Assembly (NCBI RefSeq): GCF_002285265.1 | Contig: NZ_NSJB01000002.1 | Location: forward strand, 1-64,000 | DNA: 64,000 nt | Direction of reading: 5' to 3' | Source: Vandammella animalimorsus | Lineage (GTDB): Bacteria > Pseudomonadota > Gammaproteobacteria > Burkholderiales > Burkholderiaceae_C | Part shown: one piece after another, positions 16,818 through 38,137 of the stretch | Layout: each line of letters opens with the position of its first letter | Position numbering within the stretch: the first letter of the stretch is position 1 | Position numbers and translations under genes: made by a program | The notes under the pieces: model-generated | Databases searched by the model: none | What the model was told of the DNA's origin: nothing | Seen by the model: the letters and a program-made list of their open reading frames with translations, nothing else

Positions 16818-18548
16818 ATGCCAACCAACCACTACCATCGTCCAGCCTACACGGTTCGCCTGTTGGCGACGCTGGGCGCCTTCTCCGGCCTGTGCGCCGG
16901 TACGGCTGCCTGGGCCATCACCCCTCCGGGCACGCCCCCCACTTTCTACTGCGATGCCAATCGCCCAGCCGATGCCGATACCGTAGAGGGCCAGTTCAAC
17001 ACCCGCACCGCCGACGGCAGCGCTGATGCAGCCGACCGAGGCAACCAGCCGCGCTGGGAATACGGTAGCCAAGTGGACGTAGGCACAGGCAGGGGCACCC
17101 CGCCCACGCCGGATGCGCTGCCCGACCAGACCTGGAAATTCTTTACCGGTCATGAGCTGGATCGCTACCTTACGCCAGGCACTCAAGCTCCGTACAACAC
17201 CTACCCTGGCATTGCCGTAGGCCATTACCCAGCCATTGGCACACCCCAGCTTGAGCAGTATAGTGTGCACTACTTTCGCTACCGCTTCAAGCTCGACGGC
17301 TCGGTAGACCCTGCCAGCTACGCCATCACCATCCCCGCAGGGGTGTTCGCGCCAGGGCAGCCTCATCTGCGCGTGGACGACTACATTCAAGGCGTTTACG
17401 TCAACGGCGCCAAGGTGGCTGTTGCACCGACGCTGCCTCAAGTCCTGGGCGGGGCCGCTATGCCCAACCAATGGAAGGCTGGGGAGAATGAGTTGGTGCT
17501 GGCCATCCAGAACACCAGCGTTGGCGGCGCCGTATGGCTGAGCCTGCAAAAAGTGGAGCAATCCGCCTGTAATGTTCTGCCGCCCGATACCACGCTGAGC
17601 CAGCCAGCAGACGTGACGAGCGACGAGCTGCCGACCTTCAGCGGCTCAACCAGCAACGCTCCAGCTGGCGCAACCGTGACCGTGGTCATCAAGCGCGCCG
17701 ATGGCTCCACCGCCGCCACATTGACCACCACCACCGATGCCAGCGGCAATTACACCGTGGCCGCCACGGACAAACTGCCCGCTGGCACTTACACCATCGA
17801 GGCCAATGTCGATGGTGATACCACGCCAGCCAACCAGACGCTGACCGTGACTGCGGCCCCTGTAGCGCCCGCCCCCGACACCACGCTGAACCCACCAGCG
17901 AACGTGACAGCCGACGAGCTGCCGACCTTCAGCGGCACGACCAGCAATGCAGCTGCCGGCACAACCGTAACCGTGGTCATCAAGCGCCCTGACGGCACCA
18001 CCGCCGCCACGCTGACCACCACCACCGATGCCAGCGGCAATTACACCGTGGCAGCCACGGACAAACTGCCCGCTGGCACTTACACCATCGAGGCCAATGT
18101 CGATGGTGATACCACGCCGGCCAACCAGACGCTGACTGTGACTGCGGCCCCTGTAGCGCCCGCACCCGACACCACACTGCCACCCCCGGCTGCCGTGTCG
18201 CCTGATGAGCTGCCCACCTTCAGCGGCTCGACCAGCAACGCTCCAACTGGCGCAACCGTGACCGTGGTCATCAAGCGCCCTGACGGCACCATCGTCGAGA
18301 CACTGACCACCACCACCGATGGCAGCGGCAATTACACCGTCACCGCCACCAACAAGCTGCCCGCTGGCACTTACACCATCGAGGCCAGCGTCGCTGGCGA
18401 CACCACACCGGCTACGGCTTCGCTCGTGGTGCGTTCTGCACCGCAGATCAACGGCGCCGTGCCCGTGCCCACCCTGGGGCATGGAGCGCTGGGATTGCTC
18501 AGCCTGCTGTTGATGGGCGTGGCTGCTTGGCGTCGCAAGCGCTTCTGA
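16818..18548 (+). CDS. IPTL-CTERM surface protein with three Ig-like repeats
   Basis: A 576-residue exported protein. A Sec signal peptide (about residues 1-33, ending AAWA) is followed by an N-terminal domain (about 34-250) with a galactose-binding-like look (VNGAKVAV, NQWKAGENELVLAIQN), then three about 97-residue Ig-like repeats, each beginning PDTTL and containing DELPTFSG and GNYTV. The C terminus VPTLGHGALGLLSLLLMG followed by WRRKRF is an IPTL-CTERM sorting signal: a short motif, a membrane helix and a basic tail, which in other bacteria is processed by an exosortase-type enzyme. No exosortase gene is in the window. Role is probably adhesion or envelope structure. The gene body is plus-strand with a 250-bp upstream region of unknown content. 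Confidence 0.82.
   Translation: MPTNHYHRPAYTVRLLATLGAFSGLCAGTAAWAITPPGTPPTFYCDANRPADADTVEGQFNTRTADGSADAADRGNQPRWEYGSQVDVGTGRGTPPTPDALPDQTWKFFTGHELDRYLTPGTQAPYNTYPGIAVGHYPAIGTPQLEQYSVHYFRYRFKLDGSVDPASYAITIPAGVFAPGQPHLRVDDYIQGVYVNGAKVAVAPTLPQVLGGAAMPNQWKAGENELVLAIQNTSVGGAVWLSLQKVEQSACNVLPPDTTLSQPADVTSDELPTFSGSTSNAPAGATVTVVIKRADGSTAATLTTTTDASGNYTVAATDKLPAGTYTIEANVDGDTTPANQTLTVTAAPVAPAPDTTLNPPANVTADELPTFSGTTSNAAAGTTVTVVIKRPDGTTAATLTTTTDASGNYTVAATDKLPAGTYTIEANVDGDTTPANQTLTVTAAPVAPAPDTTLPPPAAVSPDELPTFSGSTSNAPTGATVTVVIKRPDGTIVETLTTTTDGSGNYTVTATNKLPAGTYTIEASVAGDTTPATASLVVRSAPQINGAVPVPTLGHGALGLLSLLLMGVAAWRRKRF
17583..18438 (+). repeat. Tandem 291-bp repeats inside the IPTL-CTERM gene
   Basis: Three in-frame copies start at 17583, 17874 and 18165 with an exact 291-bp (97-codon) period; the third is slightly shortened at its end. 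Copies 1 and 2 are nearly identical in DNA over long stretches, which implies recent duplication or gene conversion and predicts variable copy number between strains. Confidence 0.9.
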
Positions 18549-26430: not shown

Positions 26431-26470
26431 GGGCCAGCAAGGGCCAGCAAGGGCCAGCAAGGGCCAGCAA
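26431..26470. repeat. Four perfect 10-bp direct repeats in a divergent promoter region
   Basis: GGGCCAGCAA occurs four times in a row (26431, 26441, 26451, 26461), followed by degenerate copies up to about 26491. One unit is close to one helical turn. It lies 58-97 bp before the acyl-CoA synthetase ATG and about 105 bp upstream of the AraC gene start, a position where it could act as a regulator-binding array or change promoter spacing by slippage. Confidence 0.9.
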
Positions 26471-26527
26471 GGGGCCGACAAGTGGCCAGCAAAGCCCAGG
26501 CCCCATCACGACAAGAGGAGACACACC

Positions 26528-31354: not shown

Positions 31355-31621
31355 ATGCGCACCAATATCGACATTGACGACAAGGTGATGGCTGCGGCCA
31401 TGAAGGGGGGCCAGTTCAAGACCAAGCGCGAGGCCGTGGAAGCCGGCCTGCGCCTGATCGCCCAACGCAACCACGCGCGCGAGGTGCTCAAGTGGCGCGG
31501 CAAGCTGCATTGGGACGACCAGCCCGACCCCGCCGCTGCCGCGACGCCACAAGCGCCCCAAGTGGCCGAGACCAAGGCCCGCTACCCGGCCAAGGCCGCC
31601 CGCAGCCATGCTCGTCGTTGA
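31355..31621 (+). CDS. vapB: VapB-type antitoxin
   Basis: An 88-residue antitoxin beginning MRTNIDIDDKVMAAAMKGG, with the family-typical segment TKREAVEAGLRLIAQRNHAREVLKWRGKLHWDD (ribbon-helix-helix dimer plus toxin-binding helix). The C-terminal about 35 residues form a Pro/Ala-rich tail longer than usual. The open frame extends upstream to 31277 but ATG 31355 gives the family N terminus, just after an AT-rich promoter-like stretch (31321-31350). It overlaps vapC by 14 bp. Confidence 0.9.
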   Translation: MRTNIDIDDKVMAAAMKGGQFKTKREAVEAGLRLIAQRNHAREVLKWRGKLHWDDQPDPAAAATPQAPQVAETKARYPAKAARSHARR

Positions 31622-32009
31622 CAGCAGCGTGTGGATCGACTTTTTCCGCGATGCGCCCGCGCCCGCAGTGGATGTGCTGGCGCAGTGCATGGAAAAAAGC
31701 GACATCGAAATCATCGTGCCCGACCTGGTGCTGTACGAAGTGCTGCGCGGCTTTCGCCACGAGCGCGACTACCGCAGCGCCCGCCGCCTGCTGGAAGGCT
31801 TCACGGTCGAAGCGGCCTTCAGCCCCGGCCTGGCCCGCCAGGCCGCCGAGCACTACCGCGCCATGGTGGCGCAGGGCTTCACGCTGCGCAGCCCCATTGA
31901 CGTGATGATTGGCGCCTTCTGCATCGAGCGCGACTACCTGCTGCTGCACAACGACCGCGACTTCGAGGTCATGCACCACCTGCGCGGCCTGCGCGTGTGG
32001 CTGCACTGA
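31608..32009 (+). CDS. vapC: VapC-type PIN-domain toxin
   Basis: A 133-residue PIN RNase. Catalytic acids are visible in MLVVDSSVWIDFFRD (Asp5), PDLVLYEVLRGF (Glu), SPIDVMIGAFC and HNDRDFEVM. It is paired with the overlapping VapB. Size and motifs are intact. The pair follows the ATPase gene and precedes the OsmC gene, inside the leucine-degradation region. Confidence 0.93.
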   Translation: MLVVDSSVWIDFFRDAPAPAVDVLAQCMEKSDIEIIVPDLVLYEVLRGFRHERDYRSARRLLEGFTVEAAFSPGLARQAAEHYRAMVAQGFTLRSPIDVMIGAFCIERDYLLLHNDRDFEVMHHLRGLRVWLH

Positions 32010-35689: not shown

Positions 35690-35806
35690 ATGTTCACCAA
35701 GATCCTGATCGCCAACCGCGGAGAAAGCCAGCCCTTGGGGCAGGCTTCAACAAGACGCCTGGCACGCGCAGCGTGCGCAGGCGATTTCGTCCAACGTGCT
35801 GTTTGA
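35690..35806 (+). CDS. Leader ORF copy 1 (38 codons) upstream of liuD
   Basis: A 38-residue ORF with an upstream TGAGGAG site. Residues 1-12 (MFTKILIANRGE) are nearly those of LiuD, then the sequence diverges to SQPLGQASTRRLARAACAG and ends DFVQRAV. A stop codon is followed after 19 bp by the next copy's ATG. The codon region 35756-35783 can form a hairpin (CGCCTGGCACGC pairs with GCGTGC and CAGGCG around GCA). It is not known to be translated. Compared with copy 2 there are 8 base changes, 5 of them synonymous. Confidence 0.55.
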   Translation: MFTKILIANRGESQPLGQASTRRLARAACAGDFVQRAV

Positions 35807-35825
35807 ACAACGAGGAGAGCCCACC

Positions 35826-35942
35826 ATGTTCAGCAAAATCCTGATCGCCAACCGCGGCGAAAGCCAGCCCCTGGGGCAGGCTTCAACAAAACGCCTGGCG
35901 CGCGCAGCGTGCGCAGGCGATTTCGCCCAACGCGCTGTTTGA
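35826..35942 (+). CDS. Leader ORF copy 2 (38 codons) upstream of liuD
   Basis: Same layout as copy 1: GAGGAGAGCCCACC then ATG, residues MFSKILIANRGE shared with LiuD, and the tail SQPLGQASTKRLARAACAG plus DFAQRAV. Compared with copy 3 there are 5 coding changes, of which 4 are synonymous, plus one in the spacer. No insertions or deletions have broken the frame. The ATG lies 136 bp after that of copy 1, so each copy is in a different frame of the array. Confidence 0.55.
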   Translation: MFSKILIANRGESQPLGQASTKRLARAACAGDFAQRAV

Positions 35943-35961
35943 ACAACGAGGAGAGCCCACC

Positions 35962-36078
35962 ATGTTCAGCAAAATCCTGATCGCCAATCGTGGCGAAAGC
36001 CAGTCCCTGGGGCAGGCTTCAACAAAACGCCTGGCACGCGCAGCGTGCGCAGGCGATTTCGCCCAACGCGCCGTTTGA
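35962..36078 (+). CDS. Leader ORF copy 3 (38 codons) upstream of liuD
   Basis: Third copy, ending 19 bp before the liuD ATG. Residues 1-12 are identical to LiuD; the tail differs from copy 2 only by Pro15 to Ser. Because its stop lies close to the liuD ribosome-binding site, translation of this ORF could affect liuD initiation by reinitiation or by opening structure. Confidence 0.55.
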   Translation: MFSKILIANRGESQSLGQASTKRLARAACAGDFAQRAV

Positions 36079-36097
36079 ACAACAAGGAGAGCCCACC

Positions 36098-38137
<2,040 letters not shown>

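Follow-up and report, generated by a model that had tools for sequence, protein, structure and literature searches.

The liuD-type acyl-CoA carboxylase gene of Vandammella animalimorsus is preceded by three tandem leader open reading frames (ORFs), each of which opens by copying the start of that gene, and the tail of the last leader is the exact reverse complement of codons inside liuD. Units of the same design were found before biotin-carboxylase genes in other species, and tail and gene were found to have changed together. We propose that the unit is a cis-acting translational gate before a biotin-carboxylase gene, tripled at this locus, and give this reading a probability of roughly 0.6. 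Throughout, the window refers to the whole 64,000-nucleotide stretch of DNA that was analysed (contig NZ_NSJB01000002.1, positions 1 to 64,000).

The leader array upstream of liuD

Four ATG codons were located at 35690, 35826, 35962 and 36098, the last being that of liuD, at a spacing of exactly 136 bp. The initial annotation had described this spacing, together with three 38-codon leader ORFs and a gap of 19 nt from each leader stop to the next ATG, and was correct on all three points. Tandem Repeats Finder reported a period of 136, 3.4 copies, 94% matches and 0% indels. The features of the array were as follows.

35690..35806, + strand: leader ORF 1, 38 codons, MFTKILIANRGESQPLGQASTRRLARAACAGDFVQRAV followed by the stop
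35826..35942, + strand: leader ORF 2, 38 codons, MFSKILIANRGESQPLGQASTKRLARAACAGDFAQRAV followed by the stop
35962..36078, + strand: leader ORF 3, 38 codons, adjoining liuD on its upstream side
35725..35747 (copy 1), 35861-35883 (copy 2) and 35997-36019 (copy 3), + strand: hairpin P1, from folding and family covariation
35757..35782 (copy 1), 35893-35918 (copy 2) and 36029-36054 (copy 3), + strand: hairpin P2, from folding and family covariation
35725..35798, + strand: match of structure model R1 to copy 1, 26.4 bits, E=0.0028
35863..35927, + strand: match of R1 to copy 2, 32.1 bits, E=8e-5
35999..36063, + strand: match of R1 to copy 3, 34.1 bits, E=2.5e-5
36049..36064, + strand: copy-3 tail, GCAGGCGATTTCGCCC, exactly reverse-complementary to liuD 36127-36142
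36084..36089, + strand: Shine-Dalgarno-like AAGGAG of liuD, identified by sequence and placed by the fold in a loop closed by the tail/liuD helix
36098..38137, + strand: alpha subunit of an acyl-CoA carboxylase of the liuD type, 679 aa, with biotin carboxylase and biotin-carrier domains
36127..36142, + strand: liuD segment complementary to the tail, codons 10 to 15, R-G-E-I-A-C

No indels were present among the three leaders, as had been noted before. In place of the 13 coding differences reported earlier, about nine of them said to be synonymous, 12 variable coding sites were counted, of which seven are third positions; the pairwise synonymous/nonsynonymous differences were 5/3, 7/4 and 4/1. 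A copy-1 hairpin that had been placed at 35756-35783 was recovered at 35757-35782. Folding of the array gave a structure far more stable than those of shuffled sequences (z = -5.4), and the predicted fold includes a perfect helix between the tail of copy 3 (36049-36064) and liuD 36127-36142. The tails of copies 1 and 2 are each followed by another leader copy, and their pairing with it is limited to about 7 bp. Unlike those of most family members, the window leaders stop 19 nt before the ATG, without overlap. The complementarity of the tail to liuD codons 10-15 and the recurrence of the unit elsewhere both lay beyond the view of the initial annotation.

Other repeats and ORFs were observed in the window. 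A 291-bp tandem repeat at 17583-18406 (2.8 copies, 87% alike) has a length that fits the in-frame repeats of a large protein, and a 10-bp repeat, GGGCCAGCAA, is present in six copies at 26431-26499. The 133-aa ORF at 31608-32009, which starts MLVVDSSVWIDFFRD, is one that we take to resemble a PIN-domain (VapC-type) toxin.

Distribution and anatomy of the leader family

When the genome itself was searched with the array, a related unit was found on a different contig, immediately upstream of a further biotin-carboxylase gene; here the leader, MFKKIPIANCGEIAVSPNCQVRAAQAGDFAASVSVIS and a stop, is followed by the gene start MFKKILIANRGEIACRV. A strict pattern, consisting of two such starts 87-147 bp apart, was matched in 16 of the 401 genomes of the family that were scanned and in 10 of 141 genera. 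With a broader pattern, applied to 84,980 genomes, at least 120 stretches matched and at least 80 loci were present among the matches listed, nearly all from beta-proteobacteria by title and two from gamma-proteobacteria; the genera listed include Acidovorax, Variovorax, Polaromonas, Azoarcus, Thauera, Azonexus, Methylophilus, Thiobacillus, Chromobacterium and Vogesella. The initial annotation had presented the array as a triplication of the liuD start. The array is real, but a duplication private to liuD was ruled out by the leaders found in the same genome, in the family and in the wider scans.

The leader design precedes accC, pccA, liuD and other biotin-carboxylase genes. The downstream products were AccC (about 449 aa, with GEIAL) and acyl-CoA carboxylase alpha subunits of 660-690 aa (with GEIAC), together with a few other biotin carboxylases, one of them a 1089-aa protein. 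Model R1 is a covariance model built from the middle of the leader alone, with the start and the gene excluded. Across 300 genomes of the order, all 21 of its strong matches lay directly upstream of biotin-carboxylase-type genes. Behind the weak R1 matches (E about 0.002-0.01, about 25 bits) no biotin-carboxylase start was seen, L281 being a possible exception, and these matches were taken as chance. The proportion of genomes with R1 matches in two families (24/61 and 16/61) indicated that presence is patchy. No match was obtained among 370 genomes of the wider class, at a threshold that also missed the window's own genome, and this result does not count as a true negative.

A dispersed repeat was considered and rejected: in 14 genomes, every significant match of the middle whose context was read lay at the start of a biotin-carboxylase gene, and most matches with E above about 0.003 covered short pieces of hairpin. 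The initial annotation had regarded a common dispersed repeat with no conserved frame as evidence against its own reading; strong matches of the middle were instead found solely at biotin-carboxylase starts. Many copies in unrelated genomic contexts, as expected of REP/MITE elements, were not found in the genome searches.

From the model searches, 45 loci were resolved, 43 of them with a clear start mimic and 39 with an overlapping stop. Among the low-scored loci of this set, L261 also has a mimic, with a shifted start, and L303 (G725:C16) is a decayed leader whose head is broken and in which the hairpins and the overlap of HV and stop remain. Outside the set of 45, L321 and L322 precede biotin-carboxylase genes whose start is shifted or is GTG, L296 also precedes such a gene, and the L288 locus runs past the end of its contig. 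L320 (G753:C20, near 38496) is an orphan leader, MFSKILIANRGDQPRSDEVKSMGV...SYV and a stop, without a recognisable biotin-carboxylase gene behind it, and is possibly a remnant.

The family unit has four parts, namely a start-mimic ORF, three small hairpins, an antisense tail and, in most cases, a stop that overlaps the gene start. The leader peptide follows the pattern MFxKILIANRG[DE], about 30 further residues and a terminal HV; the stop is supplied in most leaders by the gene's own start (CATGTTTAA or CATGTTTGA). It lies at gene position +8 or +11 in 124 of 162 unique leaders, and 132 of the 162 have a spacing of 1 mod 3. In one genus, codon 2 is TTC in relatives without a leader and TTT, which makes the overlapping stop, in the leader-bearing genes read. 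The middle folds into hairpins P1, P1b and P2, which are common to several orders and in which 99 cells were changed on both sides, compared to 33 ± 5 in shuffles, with a covariation score of 0.402 compared to 0.179. The earlier suggestion of a translation-tuning leader with reinitiation fits this anatomy; the stop/start overlap and the frame are conserved over dozens of species. At L142 (a Variovorax MAG) and L127 (Polaromonas sp. P2-4), a leader with a spacing of 117 is in frame with the gene, which predicts an N-terminal fusion; the broken frame at L127 may be a sequencing error.

Pairing of the leader tail with the gene and the proposed gate

In most leaders, the middle ends in a stretch of 14-20 nt that is reverse-complementary to the gene codons for N-R-G-E-I-A-C. 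Across 34 diverse leaders, in counts that treat related sequences separately and so do not represent independent events, 93.5% of the cells of the tail/gene helix were paired and 58 cells were changed on both sides, compared to 18 ± 3 after shuffling; these changes recur over many genera. The covariation score of this helix was 0.331, compared to 0.146 ± 0.012 in shuffles and at most 0.067 for slid partners. The wobble pairs in the same leaders were A-U 18, G-C 10, U-A 2 and C-G 1 at Gly11; G-C 25, C-G 7 and A-U 1 at Arg10; and G-C 27, U-A 4 and A-U 1 at Ile13.

The wobble test, in which the register was fixed blind to the wobble bases and for which 103 leaders qualified, gave 385 matches of 412 between the tails and their own genes; the mean for permuted genes was 245 and the maximum 265. 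Pairing of the tail chiefly with the leader's own head was ruled out by this test. Where the leader copy and the gene differ, the tail matched the gene 73 times, the leader three times and neither five times. In these counts, too, related sequences are treated separately and the events are not independent. Since the tail sided with the gene by 73 to 3, the gene is the partner being followed. In ensemble folding, at least eight tail/gene base pairs were expected in 88% of the 162 leaders (median 18), and the gene's ribosome-binding site was enclosed in the predicted structure by covariation as well as by folding. As judged from these sequence comparisons, the tail/gene pairing was shown to be maintained across species. 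The decoy ribosome-binding sites offered in the initial annotation overlook this main feature, the pairing of the tail with the gene's own codons.

The proposed gate would operate as follows. The tail of the leader RNA would pair with codons 10-15 of the gene, in the helix supported by covariation, and would thereby put the gene's Shine-Dalgarno sequence and AUG in a closed loop, at which free ribosomes would start poorly. The leader ORF would initiate from its copy of the gene's own start region, and the ribosome that reads it would melt the hairpins and the tail/gene helix. That ribosome would terminate on or just before the gene's AUG, in line with the observed geometry and frame, and could restart there. 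Output of the gene would in this way be tied to leader translation, probably lowered and tuned by it, and more tandem copies in series would be expected to lower it further. A plausible purpose would be to set the amount of biotin carboxylase against partner subunits encoded nearby.

Alternative explanations and comparison with known systems

The most serious alternative, which we nevertheless consider rather unlikely, is a palindromic DNA element, selfish or carried along as a passenger, which would spread from one paralogous biotin-carboxylase start to another by ectopic recombination via the shared 36-46 bp head, its frame being kept only through removal of insertions that block an important gene. 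The history of gain and loss provides the case for such an element, beginning with patchy presence and tandem copies. No leader was found before the liuD copies read in same-genus relatives; the triple array of the window would therefore be a recent gain, at species level on the evidence of these copies. Different paralogues are occupied in sister species: liuD and pccA (G000), pccA (G009) and a third paralogue (G005). Alleles with and without the unit differ by 121 bp in a further genus, and a direct repeat of about 45 bp at filled sites covers the ribosome-binding site, ATG and head. Both subclades of the gene tree contain leader-bearing species, and the empty species are nested within one of the two, suggesting that an ancestral leader was lost. 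There seem to be exact losses, as a passenger would allow, and because of these and the patchy presence the leader is considered dispensable. The leader head and the head of its own gene also evolve in concert (3.7 nt differences; expected 6.4, minimum 6.0), which suggests that the heads recombine.

A passenger, however, has no reason to track the later synonymous changes of its host gene, as the tail does. The strong matches included no copy outside biotin-carboxylase starts, no transposase-like gene was seen at the loci read, and a clade of related species has retained the unit although it could readily be deleted. Close direct repeats should delete easily, and their retention with pairing and frame, as read from the sequences, argues for a benefit.

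Two observations were made at L223 (G005:C63:34100-35350), from a species of the same genus. At least two tandem leaders precede the third paralogue (MITKVLIANRGEIAVR), and the C terminus of the upstream gene, GDLVLPLAKS, resembles the leader tail GDLAPPPAKS and is perhaps the remnant of an older unit.

It is improbable that the inverted tail is a neutral by-product, made and corrected by replication template switching at the quasi-palindrome coding N-R-G-E-I-A and having no function. In its favour, the stretch of coding sequence concerned, GGCGAAATCGCC, is an imperfect palindrome in its own right, compensatory changes could be imitated by templated correction, and template switching can also keep the match of inverted repeats at the DNA level. 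This process leaves unexplained why the frame and the stop overlap are conserved, why a middle with three covarying hairpins is shared across orders, and why the tail matches the gene and not the similar leader head.

A function of the 38-42 residue leader peptides in their own right, such as mimicking the biotin-carboxylase N terminus as a decoy, is very improbable: although the frame is conserved and in most leaders the head peptide equals the first 11 residues of the gene product (30 of the 45 for which no head was required), some of these leaders show drift of the head residues (AKRGD, TARRGD, ANRSD, AHCGE) and the tail pN/pS of 0.90 in the true frame was no better than the 0.60 and 0.97 of the false frames. 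The same values left the set of small peptides envisaged in the initial annotation unsupported, and no conserved leader peptide or stall motif, as in a stalling-peptide attenuator, was evident. The conserved features appear to be the frame, the stop position and the RNA pairing, and not the peptide.

The structured leader stands before central metabolic genes, those of fatty-acid, propionate and leucine metabolism, in many beta-proteobacteria. It ties the synonymous codon choice of the gene to an upstream RNA element, so that coding and regulatory constraint can be told apart by experiment, and it provides a natural system in which a possible effect of tandem copy number on expression can be tested. 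More tentatively, the leaders could form a new gene-specific class in which a start mimic and the antisense of the first codons make up a translational gate, head recombination adds or removes units, copy number steps expression of a biotin-dependent carboxylase up or down and the device passes between paralogues.

No Rfam gathering threshold was reached by the array in the window or by the leaders at six representative loci. Glycine riboswitch aptamers lie at L165:5736-5827 and L113:4338-4420, about 3.5 kb from accC leaders, and their proximity is probably coincidence. In the open literature searched, neither start mimicry nor an antisense to the gene's first codons was found described, and the leader family is apparently undescribed. 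The earlier statement that there is no described counterpart held in the libraries searched, apart from one unexplained table line of a frame-transition survey. This line, the GeneTack cluster 'Biotin carboxylase' (697472870; PMC3711429 Table 2), gives 128 genes in 44 genera with 75% stop/start co-location, labelled translational coupling. The cluster possibly glimpses the same leader/gene overlap; unlike the present description, that main-text line carries no leader, hairpins, mimicry or antisense tail.

REP/MITE palindromic repeats are likewise short, hairpin-rich, patchy and sometimes tandem. In contrast, the leader is not dispersed, being confined to the start of one gene family, and it has an ORF and a gene-specific antisense tail.

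Short leader ORFs are known from translational attenuators of the ermC/cat type. A regulatory uORF has been described for topAI (PMC12121999). In such systems, a short leader ORF is combined with alternative RNA pairings around the downstream ribosome-binding site, as here. In the present leaders, no stall motif or inducing drug was recognised, sequestration involves the coding sequence of the gene itself, and the leader begins with a mimic of the gene start.

Termination-reinitiation coupling at overlapping ATGA/TGATG gene pairs has been reviewed (PMC12548453) and surveyed (PMC6728339). In these systems, as in the present family, the upstream stop overlaps or abuts the downstream start, and the first ribosome is presumed to open mRNA structure. 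The upstream ORF differs from those so described in being a short copy of the gene's start, without sign of a separate protein function, and in containing the antisense of downstream codons. The leader would work like a translationally coupled leader or attenuator, with the addition of start mimicry and an antisense tail.
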